Assembly: GCA_947165105.1 (NCBI GenBank)
Contig: CAMUZC010000061.1
Location: 1-9,780 of the forward strand
Source: an uncultured Lachnospiraceae bacterium
GTDB taxonomy: Bacteria; Bacillota_A; Clostridia; TANB77; CAG-508
Direction: 5' to 3'
DNA: 9,780 nt
Part shown: positions 2,786-9,706 of the stretch, piece by piece
Layout: each line of letters opens with the position of its first letter
How positions within the stretch are numbered: the first letter of the stretch is position 1
Program-made: the position numbers and the translations under genes
The notes under the pieces: generated by a model
Told to the model about the DNA's origin: nothing
Databases searched by the model: none
Seen by the model: the letters and a program-made list of their open reading frames with translations, nothing else

Positions 2786-3880
2786 TTATAATTTTCTCAC
2801 AACAACCGTTGCCTCGAAACAATTATCCTCTTTAATTTTAGCAAAAATTTCTCCATCCATTTTATGCATTAATTGCTTACAAATATACAGTCCAAGTCCG
2901 CTTCCTTCTTGCTTTTTAGAATTACTTCCTCTATAGAAAGAATCAAAAATATGTGGTAGTTCTTCTTCTTTTAAGCTACATCCTGTATTTAATACAGAAA
3001 TTAATTTACAATCTTCTTCTTCATAAAATGAGATTGTAATTTGTTTTCCATCTCCATATTTTATTGCATTTTCTATAACATTTTGAATTACTTCTATAAT
3101 CCTGTCTTCATCACCTTTTAATAAACAATCTCCGTAATCTGCTACTAAAAACTTTGTATGAAGTGTTTCTAGTTTATCTGCGTAATATGCTTGTATTTTT
3201 TCCATTACCTCTTTTAAATAAAAACCGCCATCTTTTACTTGAAGCTCCATAAAGTCTTCTCTAGAATTTTTAACTATTTCATTTACATATTGTTCTATTT
3301 CATCTGTATTTTTTAAAATTCCATCTATAACTTCTATTCTTTTTTCTTCTGTATCGTATAAATTTTCTTTTAAAGCCGTGGAATATAGTTTAATTGCAGA
3401 TAATGGTGTTTTTATATCATGTGATAATGATAATATTAATGTCTTTTTTTCTTTCTGATATTTAAGTTCTCTTTTTTTACTGTCTTCCAAATTTTCACGA
3501 AGCATGTCCATTCCCCATGTAAATTTTCCAAAGTATTTATTTTTTTGTTCTTTTAGCGGAATGTTTAAATTTCCTTTTGCTAGTTCATATGGAAGATCTT
3601 TTATATTTGAAAATGGTTTTATTATTCTTTTATTTATATAAATATATGTACCTACCGACAGTACTACAATAGTGCCTAATGCACAGTTTATTAAAAACAG
3701 ATTAGATCTATCGTTATTAGATTTATACTCTGTTTTATATATAACCTGCCCATCTTTTTCTTCACGAATAATATTGCTATCTACATGTTTTGAATTTTGT
3801 ATATATACAAAATTTGTAATTGCTATTATTATTATCTCTAAGATAATTACTCCCCAAAAATATTTCATAAACTTTTTCAT
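2786..3880 (-). CDS. Sensor histidine kinase of the transporter-linked two-component system
   Basis: The 364-residue membrane kinase has helices at about 8-27 and 61-82 flanking an extracytoplasmic loop of only about 33 residues. A HAMP-like linker (83-135) follows, then the dimerisation helix with the phosphorylated histidine in SLSHDIKTPL (His154). The ATP-binding domain has an N box (Asn267, Asn271), a G1 region reading VLNTGCS, an F box (IFDSFYRG) and a G2 box (EGSGLGLY, 345-352). The G1 box has Asn298 where Asp is usual, a variant seen in some related kinases. The short loop leaves little room for a sensor domain, so it may sense the membrane or its neighbouring transporter. Its ATG overlaps the regulator's TGA (ATGA, 3877-3880), a standard coupling. 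GGAGTGGGG (3892-3900) may assist initiation. Confidence 0.93.
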   Translation of the reverse strand: MKKFMKYFWGVIILEIIIIAITNFVYIQNSKHVDSNIIREEKDGQVIYKTEYKSNNDRSNLFLINCALGTIVVLSVGTYIYINKRIIKPFSNIKDLPYELAKGNLNIPLKEQKNKYFGKFTWGMDMLRENLEDSKKRELKYQKEKKTLILSLSHDIKTPLSAIKLYSTALKENLYDTEEKRIEVIDGILKNTDEIEQYVNEIVKNSREDFMELQVKDGGFYLKEVMEKIQAYYADKLETLHTKFLVADYGDCLLKGDEDRIIEVIQNVIENAIKYGDGKQITISFYEEEDCKLISVLNTGCSLKEEELPHIFDSFYRGSNSKKQEGSGLGLYICKQLMHKMDGEIFAKIKEDNCFEATVVVRKL

Positions 3881-4539
3881 TCGAATCTATACCCCACTCC
3901 CCAAACTGTTATTATGTGTTTTGGCTCTTTTGGGTTTTCTTCTATTTTTTCTCTTAACCATTTTATATGTACAGTTAAAGATTGAAATTCAGTTTCACTG
4001 TCACTTCCCCAGATTGTGTTAAATAGATATTCTTTTTTTAATGTTGTATTTTTATTTTCTATTAGTATTTTTAATAATTCACATTCTTTTGATGTTAATT
4101 CATATTCTTTTTTTCCTACAGTTAAGGTTTGTTTAACTGTATTTAGTACCAAATTACCTTCAACTATTTTGTCTATATCATATCTCCTTTTAAAAATACC
4201 ATTTATCTTGGCTAACAAAATATCTATATCTATTGGTTTTTCAATATAATCATCTGCTCCTAAAACAATTCCATTTAATTTATCTTCCTTATTTGTTTTA
4301 GCACTTAAAATAATAATTGGTGTATTTGCATTTTCTCTTATTTTTGAGCATACATTAAAGCCATCTATTCCTGGCAACATTATATCAAGCAGAACTAGCC
4401 TTGCCCCGTACTTTTCGTACAGAGACAAGGCTTTTTCTCCACTTTCTGCAACACTAACCACATAATTTTCCTTTGTTAAGAAATCTTTTAGTAGTGTTGA
4501 AATTTCTTTATTATCTTCTACAATTAAAATATCTATCAT
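3877..4539 (-). CDS. OmpR/PhoB-family response regulator
   Basis: This 220-residue protein has a receiver domain (about 1-115) with acidic pocket Glu8-Asp9, phosphoacceptor Asp52 in LLDIMLPGIDG, Ser79 and Lys101 before Pro. A winged-helix DNA-binding domain (about 125-220) ends SLTVHIKWLREKI and VWGVGYRFE, the expected recognition helix and wing. It would be phosphorylated by the kinase encoded immediately downstream. AGAGGGG precedes the ATG by about 7 bases. The likely target is the permease promoter, where an 11-bp-spaced direct repeat replaces the -35 box, and perhaps its own upstream palindrome. The ABC transporter genes lie upstream on the same strand, separated by a strong palindrome. 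Confidence 0.95.
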   Translation of the reverse strand: MIDILIVEDNKEISTLLKDFLTKENYVVSVAESGEKALSLYEKYGARLVLLDIMLPGIDGFNVCSKIRENANTPIIILSAKTNKEDKLNGIVLGADDYIEKPIDIDILLAKINGIFKRRYDIDKIVEGNLVLNTVKQTLTVGKKEYELTSKECELLKILIENKNTTLKKEYLFNTIWGSDSETEFQSLTVHIKWLREKIEENPKEPKHIITVWGVGYRFE

Positions 4540-4556
4540 AATTAACCCCTCTTGAT

Positions 4557-4589
4557 ATATAGTTTACTATATTGGGAAAATTTTTTCAA
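4557..4589 (-). promoter_or_regulatory. Candidate promoter and dyad upstream of the response regulator
   Basis: ATATAGT-TT-ACTATAT (4557-4572) is a perfect 7-bp dyad 17 bases upstream of the ATG. A weak promoter can be drawn as TTGAAA (4584-4589), 17 bases, TAAACT (4561-4566) on the minus strand, with the dyad covering its -10 box. The -35 box touches the palindrome that follows. The promoter match is modest; the dyad is certain. Confidence 0.4.
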
Positions 4590-4639
4590 TTGGGGACGGA
4601 GAAGATTTTAAAAATTTAAAATCTTCTCCGTCCCCAATT
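4588..4639. repeat. 52-bp perfect palindrome of the GGGACGG family
   Basis: Two 25-base arms are perfectly complementary around a 2-base centre: AATTGGGGACGG opens the left arm and CCGTCCCCAATT closes the right. The inner part is GAAGATTTTAAA and its complement. It sits between the transporter ATPase stop (8 bases away) and the response regulator. It shares the CAAT-(A/T)GGG(G)ACGG head with the element at 7889-7978. Such GGGGACGG palindromes recur in clostridial intergenic DNA, as I recall, and resemble REP-type repeats. No T-tract follows on the minus strand, so it is not a canonical terminator, although it could slow or stabilise the transcript. Confidence 0.85.
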
Positions 4640-4647
4640 TCAAAAGC

Positions 4648-5415
4648 TTACCAACCAAGTTCCATTAACCAGTTATTTAAAGCTCTTTCTCTTTCCATTT
4701 CTTCTTTATCAGAAAATTTATTTGATAACTCAAATTCACCTTGAATATTTCCATCAACTATATATAAAACTCTAGAACATTTTGCTGCAATTTTAGCATC
4801 ATGTGTTACCATCATAATTGTTGTTCCTTCTTTATTTAGCTTAACTAATTCATCCATTACTTCTTCAGATGATGTTCTGTTTAAAGAACCTGTTGGCTCA
4901 TCTGCAAATATTACTTTAGGATTATTTATCATACTTCTACAAATACATGCTCTTTGAAGTTGACCTCCTGATACTTCATTTATATCATTATCAGCAATTT
5001 TGATTATTCCAAGTTTTCTCATTAACTCTTCTGCATGCTTAATCTTTTCTTTTTTAGATTGTTTTGATTTAGTATTTCTTATTGCTGGTAATACAATGTT
5101 ATCTAATACAGTTAAGTTTTTCATCATGTACATTTGTTGAAATATAAATCCCATTTCACTTAAACGTACTTCTGCTAATTTTTTGCTTTTTAATTTTGTT
5201 ATATCTTTTCCATTAAATTTTATTTGTCCACAAGTTGCATTATCCATTCCTGAAACTGTATAAAGTAATGTAGATTTTCCAGATCCAGAAGGTCCCATAA
5301 TTGCAACCATTTCTCCTTCTTCAACACTTAGATTAATATTTTTCAATACATTATTTTGTCTTTTATTAATCACATAAGTTTTACAAAGATCTTTAACTTC
5401 TATTATTTTTGACAT
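4648..5415 (-). CDS. ABC transporter ATPase (MacB/LolD/Bce type)
   Basis: The 255-residue nucleotide-binding subunit has every expected motif: Walker A GPSGSGKST (41-49), Q-loop IFQQM (Gln93), signature VSGGQ (148-152), Walker B VIFADEPTGS (Asp172, Glu173) and the switch His205 in MVTHD. The sequence LNRTSSEEVMDEL after Walker B is typical of the MacB/LolD/BceA subgroup that works with FtsX-type permeases. It starts 21 bases after the permease stop with an AAAGGAAG ribosome binding site, so the two are one operon. In this subgroup ATP hydrolysis usually drives movement of the extracytoplasmic domains to extract or expel peptides or lipids, without classical transport. The C-terminal 30 residues are a charged extension ending in an aromatic cap. 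Confidence 0.95.
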   Translation of the reverse strand: MSKIIEVKDLCKTYVINKRQNNVLKNINLSVEEGEMVAIMGPSGSGKSTLLYTVSGMDNATCGQIKFNGKDITKLKSKKLAEVRLSEMGFIFQQMYMMKNLTVLDNIVLPAIRNTKSKQSKKEKIKHAEELMRKLGIIKIADNDINEVSGGQLQRACICRSMINNPKVIFADEPTGSLNRTSSEEVMDELVKLNKEGTTIMMVTHDAKIAAKCSRVLYIVDGNIQGEFELSNKFSDKEEMERERALNNWLMELGW

Positions 5416-5436
5416 TTTCTCTACTTCCTTTCTTTT

Positions 5437-7812
5437 TTATTCTATATTAGCTGTATCGCTACTCTTAATTCTCTTTGTTGTTAATGACGCCAAAGCTGCT
5501 ATTATTACAGTTGCCACGAATACTATTCCTGGGTATATTAAATATACATGTAATGGATTTATTAAGAAATTAACTTTGTCTAATCCCATCATTGCGAAAA
5601 CAGGGGTACACCATAGTCTTGTTATTGGTACTGCTAAAATAGCAGCTAACACCTCTGCAATAAGTGTTGCAACTAAAAATCTATATGTATGCCATTTGAT
5701 TATATGACCATCTTTAAATCCTATAGCTTTTAATAAAGCTATTTGTGATTTTTCATTTGTTATAAATGATAACTCTATTAATAGTGTAACAAGTATTACA
5801 ACTACAATTGTTATCGCAAGTAATAAGTATTGTACTGCTTCCATTGTATCAACAACACCAAGAAGCTTCGTACATGTTCCTGCTGCATCATATACCTCTT
5901 CAGATTTTACCAATTCTTTTATTTTTTCTATACGATTTTGTCTTTCTTCTTCAGTTGGATTATCTTTATAATCGATTTGATAGTAACCTGTACTAGATAT
6001 TCTATCAAAATTTGATGGTGCATTCTCATTTAATCTTATTACTTCACCTTGATTATTTAATGATTTAAAATATGCTGTTACTATTAATTCTCTTTGTTCA
6101 TTTCCAAAATCAATTGTAATTTTATCTCCTATTTTTGCTCCAAGTTTCTTAGATATTATATCTGTTATTGCTACCTCATTTTCTTTTACTGGAGCAATTC
6201 CTTCATAATACACATATTCATCTGCCTTTATATTTAAGCCTTGAAGAGTTCTTATACTATATGTATTTCCATTAAAAGTTACATTATAATTAAACATTAA
6301 TTCTTCGCACAATTTACATGGAATTCCATTTTTCTCAAATAGATTCTCATATTTTTTTAAATCATCTTCAAATACCTGTTTTGATTTCATGCTATTAAAA
6401 CCATCTACATCTATCTCACCAGGAATAAAGTACACATCACTTTCTTTAAAAAATGCAGTTATCAAATTCTTACTTTTCATAGTGTCAGTTGTAATTACTA
6501 TTCCTAAAACAAGTACTAAACATACAAAAAATGAGATTATAATTGTAATAAATCTTTTGGGTGCACTTAATATATCATTTATTGACATATATAAATTTAG
6601 TTTTATATGACTATTTTTTAATTTATATATAGTTTTTGCTTTATATCTTTCACCTGTTTGACCATTTCTTATTGCTTCTACTGGTGATGCTTTTTTTACT
6701 TTTCCAGTGAATATACGAGCAAATAAAACTGTTACTAATACTGTTAATATAGCTCCTATGATATTTATAGTAATTCCAACAGAGTTTCCAAGTACCATAT
6801 TATCAGTTGATGATTTTATAAGCATATTTCCAAATGGAACGCTTAATAGTAACCCAATAACAGAGCCAACTATACCTAAAGATAAGTATTTAATAATATA
6901 TAAATTTCTTATGCTTTTATTATTAATACCAATCGCTTTCATAACGCCTATTTCTCTGTATTCTTCATTTACTGTAAATGCTATTGTGAATCTAAGTACC
7001 AATAATGCTACTATAACCAAACATACACTTAAAATTAATACAATAAATGCAATTATCATATCCATTACATAAGTTAATTTTACAGTATCTTTTGAAGCTT
7101 TAAATAGACATGATGTTACATCACCTAAGCATTTTTCAACTTGGTTTGGATTATCTGTTTCTATATAGAATACTTCTTCACCCTTTTTTTGTTTTTCTTC
7201 TGCTGTGTTATCTTTATACATAGTATTAAATATTGTTTCGTAATCCTCTTTATTTAGTATTACCCTTGTTATTCCAACAAAACCTGATCCTAAAAATGCA
7301 TCTTTTGCTTTTCCTGCTACTTTTAAATTCAATTTAAGCCCTTTTATATCAACTGTTACTTCATCTCCAATTGATAAATTACTTTTTTCAATGCATCTTC
7401 CAGTTAAATAAACTTCACCTTTTTTTACACTTGTTATTTCATTATCATCCTTATCAAAAAAATGAATAGCTGAATTCTCTATTGCTTGAAGTACAATGTT
7501 GTCTCCACCCTTTAAAGGTTCGTCTCCTCTTTTTATATTATTATTCATTGTTACTATACAAGGTTCAGATTTGTAGCTTTTAACTGATTCTTCTTTACCT
7601 AATAATTCTGGAACATTATTATCTTTTGAACACACTATATAGTAATCACCTATTCCCGCTTTCTCAAAATAATAATCTGTTCCATTCATTACTGTTGCTA
7701 TATTATTTAAGCCACTTGCTGAAAATATTGTTGCTAAAATAATGAATAACAGTAATAAAAAGTTCATAACTTTTTTCTTTTTTAAGTCTAATTTTAAAAT
7801 TCTAAAAAACAT
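5437..7812 (-). CDS. ABC transporter permease with two FtsX domains
   Basis: The 791-residue protein is an internal duplication: TM1 (16-34), an extracytoplasmic domain (about 36-250), TM2-4 (251-275, 305-327, 345-367), a cytoplasmic linker, TM5 (420-442), a second extracytoplasmic domain (443-658) and TM6-8 (660-684, 712-730, 757-778). Each FtsX domain carries the coupling-helix motif, REIGVMKAIGINNKSI (286-301) and KSQIALLKAIGFKDGHI (688-704). This is the 8-TM double-FtsX plan. BceB-type permeases instead have ten helices and one large external domain. With its ATPase and two-component system it is probably a mechanotransmission or extrusion system for antimicrobial peptides or envelope lipids; the substrate is not readable. 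AAGGAGGAG lies 9 bases before the ATG. The gene order (permease, ATPase, regulator, kinase) reverses the usual Bce order. Confidence 0.93.
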   Translation of the reverse strand: MFFRILKLDLKKKKVMNFLLLLFIILATIFSASGLNNIATVMNGTDYYFEKAGIGDYYIVCSKDNNVPELLGKEESVKSYKSEPCIVTMNNNIKRGDEPLKGGDNIVLQAIENSAIHFFDKDDNEITSVKKGEVYLTGRCIEKSNLSIGDEVTVDIKGLKLNLKVAGKAKDAFLGSGFVGITRVILNKEDYETIFNTMYKDNTAEEKQKKGEEVFYIETDNPNQVEKCLGDVTSCLFKASKDTVKLTYVMDMIIAFIVLILSVCLVIVALLVLRFTIAFTVNEEYREIGVMKAIGINNKSIRNLYIIKYLSLGIVGSVIGLLLSVPFGNMLIKSSTDNMVLGNSVGITINIIGAILTVLVTVLFARIFTGKVKKASPVEAIRNGQTGERYKAKTIYKLKNSHIKLNLYMSINDILSAPKRFITIIISFFVCLVLVLGIVITTDTMKSKNLITAFFKESDVYFIPGEIDVDGFNSMKSKQVFEDDLKKYENLFEKNGIPCKLCEELMFNYNVTFNGNTYSIRTLQGLNIKADEYVYYEGIAPVKENEVAITDIISKKLGAKIGDKITIDFGNEQRELIVTAYFKSLNNQGEVIRLNENAPSNFDRISSTGYYQIDYKDNPTEEERQNRIEKIKELVKSEEVYDAAGTCTKLLGVVDTMEAVQYLLLAITIVVVILVTLLIELSFITNEKSQIALLKAIGFKDGHIIKWHTYRFLVATLIAEVLAAILAVPITRLWCTPVFAMMGLDKVNFLINPLHVYLIYPGIVFVATVIIAALASLTTKRIKSSDTANIE

Positions 7813-7888: not shown

Positions 7889-7978
7889 TGCCAATAGGGA
7901 CGGTTCTTTTTGGCAATAAGAACCGTCCCTTTTTCCACGAACCGTCCTTATTGCCAAAGAGAACCGTCCCTATTGGCA
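7889..7978 (-). repeat. 90-bp composite palindrome of the GGGACGG family, probable terminator
   Basis: Outer arms of 32 bases (7889-7920 and 7947-7978) are complementary apart from one T-G position (7908/7959). Four copies of the GGGACGG core occur: forward at 7897, and inverted at 7923, 7942 (shortened) and 7964. The left arm can pair either with the right arm or locally (7897-7908 with 7918-7929), so alternative hairpins exist. On the minus strand the structure is followed by seven T residues (7881-7887), so it should terminate the gene whose TAG stop is the very next base. The unit is REP-like. Confidence 0.85.
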
Positions 7979-8524
7979 CTAATCTTTAATCTCATCTAAA
8001 ACCCAATCATAATCCCTCAAAACATACACACTTCCGCAATACTCGCAAACACCATTTTTGTTTAAATCAATATTTGCACCACATCCTGTACATCTACGTG
8101 CATTTCCAAGTGCTTTTGCATTTTTTATTTTAGAGAATTTTAATGTAACATATTTCTCCTTTCTTACATCTCTATCTCCTGAAATATATTTTTTTGTATC
8201 TTTTGTTATTTTGTAATCTAAATATTTTGTTAATAAACGAACAGTAATTTCAAATCTATCTTCTAATTCTTCAATATTTACTATGTTTGTGTCTGATACA
8301 TTTAATTCATCATATACTTGGATTTCATTTGCTGATTGTAACTCTTGTATTTTTTGGTTGTATTTTTCATAAACTTCTTCTGATAAAAAGTGTCTTATGC
8401 TTTCTAAATTTTGTTTCATTACTCCTGTATATAATTTTATATAAACATTATCAACTTTTGCTTTAAATTTTGCCTCTGAAAATGTGTTATCTTCTCTAAT
8501 TAAATTATCTAAAACCTCACTCAT
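7979..8524 (-). CDS. Soluble Tim44-like protein with C-terminal zinc ribbon
   Basis: This 181-residue protein has no signal peptide or membrane helix. Residues about 15-140 resemble the Tim44-like domain: an initial helix pair (FKAKVDNVYIKLYTGVMKQN), then Leu-Ser-Glu-Glu-Val-Tyr-Glu-Lys-Tyr, then beta strands ending in YVTLKFSK. A zinc ribbon follows (Cys145, Cys148, Cys160, Cys163) and a short tail containing DYDWVLDE. The membrane-bound protein encoded just upstream has the same order of domains and the same CxGCGA/NGVCxYC-type pattern, so the two are paralogues. Bacterial Tim44-like proteins have no established role. AAAGGAAG precedes the ATG by about 9 bases; an earlier ATG in another frame stops after four codons. 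Its stop codon abuts the palindrome that likely terminates it. Confidence 0.8.
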   Translation of the reverse strand: MSEVLDNLIREDNTFSEAKFKAKVDNVYIKLYTGVMKQNLESIRHFLSEEVYEKYNQKIQELQSANEIQVYDELNVSDTNIVNIEELEDRFEITVRLLTKYLDYKITKDTKKYISGDRDVRKEKYVTLKFSKIKNAKALGNARRCTGCGANIDLNKNGVCEYCGSVYVLRDYDWVLDEIKD

Positions 8525-8619: not shown

Positions 8620-8650
8620 CAAAAAGCAACACCATAAAACCGTAGAGTAG

Positions 8651-8808
8651 TAAAAATGTCGAAAAATGTCAGCTAGCAAAATTTATTAACCTGTAGTGGA
8701 GTGCGCAGTTTGGCGCCCCCACCTACCGTCTTTCTCTCAAATCCGAACGCCAGTAAACGAACGGAAGGTTAATAATATTTTGCTAGTTGATGTTTTTCGA
8801 CATTTTTA
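8651..8808. repeat. 158-bp fold-back element with two internal hairpins
   Basis: The left arm (8651-8692, starting TAAAAATGTCGAAAAA) is complementary to the right arm (8766-8808, ending TTTTTCGACATTTTTA) over 42 bases, with three substitutions and one extra base. All three substitutions are G-U pairs if the plus strand is RNA. The 73-base centre is richer in G+C than its surroundings. It forms one hairpin directly after the left arm (8693-8726: GTAG/CTAC, TGG/CCA, GCGC/GCGC) and another directly before the right arm (8742-8765: TCCG/CGGA, then CG/CG across an AA/AA loop). The whole would make a three-way junction. It contains no reading frame I accept. It may be a MITE-like element or a structured RNA or single-strand DNA. 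The rest of this intergenic stretch (8525-8815) holds only the promoter above. Confidence 0.85.
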
Positions 8809-8815
8809 CGGCCCA

Positions 8816-9706
8816 CTACAAATTATCTTGTCTAGTACAAACCTTCTTAGACATTACCCAACTTGTATTTTCTCCAACAATCTTAGAACTACAATATGGA
8901 CATACTCCAGAAGCATTTACCTCAACAGGTGCTCCACAGTTTGGACATTTATCTATTTTCTCATCTGTATTCTTCATAATAAATGTGAAGTCATAGTACA
9001 TTCTTAATTTATTTGTCTTGCTTCCTCTTAGGACTTTTCCGCTTTCTTTTTCAATAATATAATCATAGAATTCAATTATATACTTAGCAGTAACTTCAAC
9101 ATTATCATTTTGATCTACACAATTTGTAATTGCTGAATCTCTTAATACGAATCCGCTCATAATGTTTTGCTCGCCCTTAATTTCCATACTTGAAAGTTGA
9201 GATTCATACATATTGAACATTTCATCAGTTATAATATTGTGAACTTTTTCTAATTCAAAATTCATCCATGCATCTTCAACATCTAAGAACATTTGGTAAC
9301 CATCTTTTAAGAATTGATTTTCATCAAATCCTGGTATTAATTCTTTCAACTTAGCAATTGCAGCTGCATTTGGTTGTAATTTAGTAATTGCCTGAATAGA
9401 AGCTTTTCCTCTTTTTGATGCAATAATAATTATTATAAATACAATTATTATCCATATAAATACTCCTACTACATCAGAGCCGTCACCTGATGAACTACTT
9501 GACCCTGAACTATAGCTAGAGCTGCTCCTGCTTGAATGACTTGAACTACTTGAGCTACTTGAGTGGCTTGATGAGCTTCCACCACTATAGCTTGAGTGAT
9601 ATCCAGCATCAGCATGGCTTTTGTTACTGTTGAAAACAAAACACAATGATGTAACCATTGCCAATGTCAGAATAATTTTAGCGAAAGTTTTTAAATACTT
9701 TTTCAT
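8816..9706 (-). CDS. Membrane-anchored or exported Tim44-like protein with Ser/His-rich region and zinc ribbon
   Basis: The 296-residue protein starts with a signal peptide (Lys-rich start, hydrophobic 10-25, SHADAG near 30-35). A Ser-dominated segment with scattered His, Tyr and Gly follows (about 36-75), then a strong transmembrane helix (79-96) followed by SKRGK. A Tim44-like domain (about 115-245) and a zinc ribbon (Cys254, Cys257, Cys269, Cys272) come next, with SWVMSKK near the end. By the positive-inside rule the Tim44-like and zinc-ribbon parts are cytoplasmic and the Ser-rich part is outside. Proteins of this plan occur in Bacillota but their role is unknown. AGGAGAGG lies 9 bases before the ATG. 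Compared with the paralogue downstream, it has about six extra C-terminal residues (TRQDNL), encoded next to the fold-back element. Confidence 0.85.
   Translation of the reverse strand: MKKYLKTFAKIILTLAMVTSLCFVFNSNKSHADAGYHSSYSGGSSSSHSSSSSSSSHSSRSSSSYSSGSSSSSGDGSDVVGVFIWIIIVFIIIIIASKRGKASIQAITKLQPNAAAIAKLKELIPGFDENQFLKDGYQMFLDVEDAWMNFELEKVHNIITDEMFNMYESQLSSMEIKGEQNIMSGFVLRDSAITNCVDQNDNVEVTAKYIIEFYDYIIEKESGKVLRGSKTNKLRMYYDFTFIMKNTDEKIDKCPNCGAPVEVNASGVCPYCSSKIVGENTSWVMSKKVCTRQDNL

Follow-up and report, generated by a model that had tools for sequence, protein, structure and literature searches.

A family of short mobile hairpins with a conserved folded core in a single, mostly uncultured order of Clostridia

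The fold-back at positions 8651–8808 of the analyzed window (a stretch of 9,780 nt from an uncultured Lachnospiraceae bacterium, contig CAMUZC010000061.1) belongs to a family of short mobile hairpins that encode no protein and occur in a single order of Clostridia, the members of which are mostly uncultured. Covariation shows selection on the core of this hairpin as a folded strand. We favor the reading, to which we give about an even chance, that this is a non-autonomous mobile fold-back element with a core that functions in the form of a folded single strand.

The element is flanked by two minus-strand genes, 7979–8524 and 8816–9706, each with a Tim44 domain, and lies 6 nt from the end of one of them. 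The first-pass annotation described 42-base arms around a 73-base centre (8693–8765), and this fold-back is real (Table 1): the predicted RNA fold has an energy of –70.1 kcal/mol for the plus strand (z –12.1) and –69.1 kcal/mol for the minus strand (z –10.2), equaled in either case by none of 200 shuffles. The three arm substitutions reported there all form G-U pairs in plus-strand RNA (8667 T.G 8792, 8668 G.T 8791, 8672 G.T 8787), with the third position being 8672 rather than 8675. No target duplication is recognizable for the window copy. The window also contains two further long palindromes made of GGGACGG/CCGTCCC, at 7889–7978 and 4575–4652, and consecutive genes for a histidine kinase, response regulator, ABC ATPase and FtsX-type permease at 2786–7812.

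Table 1. Features of the fold-back element in the window.
Feature	Position	Strand	Remarks
Left edge motif GTAGAGTAG	8642..8650	+	common to many copies in the genus, by eye
5' (left) arm	8651..8692	+	42 pairs with 8766–8808; arms variable yet complementary in 117 copies
Conserved core, 5' half, GTAGTGGAGTGCGCAGTTTGG	8693..8713	+	alignments A2, A3, A4; model R2
Variable apical region	8714..8749	+	other sequences or hairpins of differing length in relatives
Conserved core, 3' half, CCAGTAAACGAACGGA	8750..8765	+	pairs with 5' half of the core
3' (right) arm, bulged T at 8776	8766..8808	+	one-base bulge near there frequent among G004 copies
Right edge CGGCCCACTAC	8809..8819	+	contains stop codon of the neighbor gene; ACGGC-type edges frequent among copies, by eye
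Core pairs	8701–8758, 8702–8757, 8705–8754, 8706–8753, 8711–8752, 8712–8751, 8713–8750	+	alignments and outside copies

Dispersed copies and empty sites, both suggested as checks by the first-pass annotation, have been found. Scanning for relatives with the neighboring Tim44-domain protein yielded five loci (L002–L006) in draft genomes labeled Clostridia or Lachnospiraceae, and BLASTN finds no element match at the gene pair of the window in any of them; strong matches are present only in L003 and L006, both away from this pair, so that the window's site lacks an element match in all five. The whole genomes of these five relatives have 3, 15, 39, 30, and 23 matches, respectively. Element matches occur in 8 out of 16 genomes of the genus and in 3 out of 59 genomes of the family sample, one of the latter being weak (G040, 29-base matches only). 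In total, 117 copies, counting that of the window and a few fragments, have been collected, and none of the 117 lies inside an ORF of at least 150 codons by the rule of the script used.

At the level of the order, covariance model R1 has matches in 13 of 287 genomes, and model R2, in 37 of 385 genomes at E ≤ 0.01, 34 of these at E ≤ 0.001, with at most eight candidates scored per genome and with nine of the 34 genomes having supplied sequences of the model. The window itself is matched at 8680–8780 with 100.3 bits, its sequence being a part of R2. In the class (391 genomes) and phylum (398 genomes) samples R2 identifies one genome each, the seed genome only; as the filters were stricter and only a small number of candidates was scored in each genome, weak relatives may have escaped detection at these levels. 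The distant copies have the core in common, but not the arms. Among 21 newly found R2 loci that were inspected, no core is visible in L292 (G057); in this locus and in L337 (G057:C6:233-490) the model gives three tandem matches approximately 91 nt apart, and a pattern search for the core motif found none, so these may be something else.

No Rfam 15 family matches the window at the gathering cut-off, and a search of 13 loci of relatives with E up to 1 yields twelve matches, all sub-threshold; the nearest one, of the long hairpin in L012 to MIR171_1 on both strands (46 bits against the cut-off of 48), is taken as a generic hairpin match. In plasmids and phages, BLASTN retrieves 10 and 35 records with short matches, none covering 80% of the query, and no match for the core of another copy. 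In viral contigs, one matching stretch turned out to consist of low-complexity TGTCG repeats; four of the further 62 and 3 stretches were read and are GC-rich sequences other than the element, the remainder being taken as chance matches. We found no printed description of such an element in the literature searched, where subscription journals are poorly covered.

The first-pass annotation suggested a three-way junction. The small hairpins that it described atop the long stem are indeed present in the minimum-energy fold of the window copy, but they do not constitute the conserved fold, being contradicted by the alignment across genera. When only the genus is considered, a local GTGC/GCGC hairpin and long-range pairing both look possible, with 100% of cells paired in the local register. 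Across genera the local GCGC-type hairpin breaks at column pairs 35–52, 36–50, and 37–49; its rejection concerns the conserved fold, and it is a possible fold of the window copy. The long-range structure has 98.5% of cells paired in alignment A3 (36 sequences, across genera), with the covariation of 0.408, compared to 0.141 in shuffled alignments and at most 0.108 in slid versions, and with ten pairs changed on both sides compared to 6.4 in shuffled ones; the weakest measure, further pair types, is equaled by 22 out of 500 shuffles. For example, the pair 8702–8757 (columns 36–155 of A3) is TA in 21, CG in 13, TG in one, and CA in one of the 36 sequences, and the pair 8701–8758 (columns 35–156) is GC in 23, with A opposite a gap in 13, where the gap placement is alignment-dependent.

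As the structure was partly read from the same alignments, copies outside them provide a fairer test. In 51 such copies, chosen by a pattern permitting either base on each side, the pair 8702–8757 is CG in 35, TA in 15, TG in one, and CA in none. This set comes from 82 loci, of which 64 yielded one copy each, 13 of the 64 being also in the alignments, while 18 were dropped with either no copy fitting the pattern and the arm rule or a copy already kept. Compensatory changes are thus present in relatives both within the genus and across genera, and the comparison supports one irregular hairpin with long-range core pairs, rather than a three-way junction, as the conserved fold. The outcomes that the first-pass annotation named as speaking against its proposal, no second copy and no compensatory changes, have not occurred.

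We also observe deviating variants. In L111, L117, L122, and L124 the loop AGTTTG of the 5' half of the core is replaced by a TAGYAAA-type sequence resembling the 3' half. Several of the loci L280–L300 have a longer apical region, of approximately 72 bases, that is recognizably alike between several genomes and may be a second conserved part.

The arms were analyzed in 101 of the 117 copies, those with arms of at least 38 columns; seven of the 117 gave no arm alignment. In 62 of the 101 the inner arm has no mismatch, and at 80% identity the arm sequences form 24 classes, including eleven one-member classes from G004. The arms of L029 are fully complementary over 73 bases, compared to 11 mismatches and a gap in its sister L033, which suggests arm-to-arm correction.

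Two subfamilies, A and B, have GTTAC ends. In subfamily A (about 165 bp) GTTAC is followed by RTTCAGGTGCC, and a flanking repeat of at least eight bases is present in 13 of 15 copies, abutting the end in 12; subfamily B has outer GTTACWRTTTAAYA, with exact 8-bp repeats in nine of the 11 copies having both ends recognized. Transposition of both subfamilies is shown by these target duplications. By eye, the ends vary by genome, e.g., GTTAC in G243, GGGGACGG in some copies of G173, and GGGACACCTCC in some copies of G064. Moreover, the core halves of L139, L143, and L144 are retained, but their apical hairpin differs; in L150 a B-type end surrounds a different centre, and L141 is an A palindrome without the core. 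Within one genome, the core of L139 points the other way with respect to the outer edges than in L143 and L144, as if arm recombination had flipped it.

Being short, dispersed, and devoid of a transposase gene of its own, the element is a MITE in the broad sense. An ordinary MITE, whose core would be an inert left-over alike between species through recent spread, is nevertheless quite improbable as the full explanation: the terminal inverted repeats with target duplications in subfamilies A and B and the many near-identical copies within G003 agree with it, but the core covaries between genera while the arms and ends differ, one core occurs with different ends, and compensatory change in distant relatives had already weakened this explanation. 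Recent spread would have brought the arms along, hence the likeness restricted to the core counts against it.

Which strand is folded was addressed in several ways. The argument of the first-pass annotation from the G-U pairs in the arms has failed, as distinct GT contexts outnumber distinct AC contexts of arm mismatches by 22 to 13 (p 0.18) and 37 to 30 (p 0.46) in two sets and by 59 to 43 when pooled (p 0.14), significant in neither set. The core is more informative: the pair 8705–8754 (columns 39–152 of A3) is G.T in 20 and G-C in 16 of the 36 sequences, which on the minus strand would be C.A or C-G, and together with the purine-rich loops this supports plus as the likely sense of the folded strand. 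The plus strand of the window copy being opposite to the neighboring genes, as pointed out earlier, reflects a family-wide tendency: 60 of 72 copies between tandem genes have their plus strand opposite to both (p 8e-9), as do 26 of 40 distant copies (p 0.08).

To tell an effect of transcription from one of replication, copies between divergent or convergent genes were compared to the strand that carries most genes in the 14–20 kb around them (the majority strand), an established stand-in for the replication direction in such genomes, used here in place of a mapped origin; the sign of the GC skew agreed with it around the tested copies. Plus and majority strands are opposed in 15 of 18 divergent copies, in both of two further divergent ones, and in all five convergent ones, which makes 22 of 25 pooled (p 0.00016). 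In all these orientation counts near-identical copies are entered as separate insertions. The 18 divergent copies are those out of 26 chosen for long contigs. From the second set, only convergent and divergent cases were used; its overall ratio of 13 opposite to 11 same is an unfair tally, as nine of its stretches had been picked as exceptions. Since the bias is observed where the local genes are neutral, the core orientation tracks the chromosome strand. Loss of unstable insertions fits this bias equally well as targeted placement. A need for the plus fold on the lagging-strand template would predict the opposite of the observed orientation.

These data also bear on a transcription terminator or insulator hairpin. 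The window copy is 6 nt from a gene end, at a site where a terminator-like hairpin is visible by eye in L002 and L005. But copies lie least often at convergent gene ends (5 of 103 and 6 of 62 copies, compared to 26 and 16 at divergent starts), their orientation goes with the chromosome strand in places where the local genes are neutral, and termination leaves the conserved core unexplained. This makes such a role highly improbable.

Another candidate is an RNA transcribed from the plus strand that has a regulatory or protein-binding function and is carried along by mobile elements; the transcript would then be selected, and the core would be an RNA internal-loop motif. This would account for covariation that resembles that of structured RNAs, as well as for the purine-rich loops and the G.T/G-C pair seen on the plus strand. 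Columns 49–50 and 146–147 of A3 alternate between CG/GC and GA/AG (49–147: CG 23, GA 12, AA 1; 50–146: GC 21, AG 13, AC 1, GA 1), tandem G.A pairs being common in RNA, and the apical part of L301 has a short stem closed by GAAA. Still, we consider this explanation somewhat unlikely, as the plus strand is antisense to the neighboring genes in most copies, the arms, and hence any promoter inside them, appear not to be conserved, and no Rfam match reaches the cut-off. Based on the orientation and on arms that appear to conserve no promoter, we infer that the core probably acts as DNA near the fork rather than as RNA.

Returning to the favored mobile element with a folded single-stranded core, its ends would be recognized by transposases acting in trans, which for the GTTAC ends would be an enzyme making 8-bp duplications and for GGGACGG-type ends possibly HUH tyrosine transposases. 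Search with TIR patterns found no autonomous partner for the GTTAC ends in these draft genomes, which may lack it; PF00872 matches only G118 out of 12 genomes, and Y1_Tnp matches three out of five, with none in G003 and G005, both rich in copies. In the genus, five of seven loci with Y1 transposases have GGGACGG repeats on their flanks. In L060, L062, L063, L065, and L066, Y1 (HUH) transposase genes lie between inverted GGGACGG repeats, single or multiple; the same motif composes the two further palindromes of the window. These flanks resemble those of the TIR-associated tyrosine transposases, whose TIRYT ends have GGGGWSAS in common (PMC3733652).

The element is similar to REPINs and the TIR repeats of RAYT/TIRYT (IS200/IS605-like) in being palindromic and foldable as a single strand, and some of its relatives carry GGGGACGG or GGGACACC outer arms. 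Unlike IS200/IS605-type repeats, subfamilies A and B make 8-bp target duplications, which argues against an enzyme of this (HUH) type for them. With bcr1 of the Bacillus cereus group the element shares short length, lack of a protein, intergenic location, multiple copies, and foldability. The elements bcr1–bcr3 are described as MITE-like and often transcribed in UTRs (PMC3446304); in contrast to bcr1 as described, the core fold here is conserved across genera and is joined to different ends and arms. There may also be an analogy, in the manner of working and not in membership, to the attC sites of integrons. In the latter, structure is conserved above sequence, the terminal hairpin is variable, the folded single strand is recognized, and the orientation relative to replication matters.

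The core of the favored element would be recognized as a plus-sense folded single strand, most probably of DNA that becomes exposed near the replication fork; such recognition would keep its fold while the ends and arms change. Complementarity of the arms would probably depend both on end recognition and on correction templated by the hairpin. A bolder proposal, which we regard as unlikely, is that the heritable unit is the approximately 40-base folded core, joining unrelated transposon ends, tolerated in near-any complementary arms and placed by replication polarity, and thus forming a class of mobile structure separate from those of MITEs, REPs, and attC sites.

As a rule, small fold-back elements of bacteria are viewed as debris defined by their ends, whereas here the conserved part is inside. 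The family is therefore a test case for how selection within a mobile element can fall on a structure rather than on a gene, and for whether it acts on RNA or on DNA exposed by replication. Moreover, the covariance model allows for the annotation of many intergenic palindromes in these bacteria.
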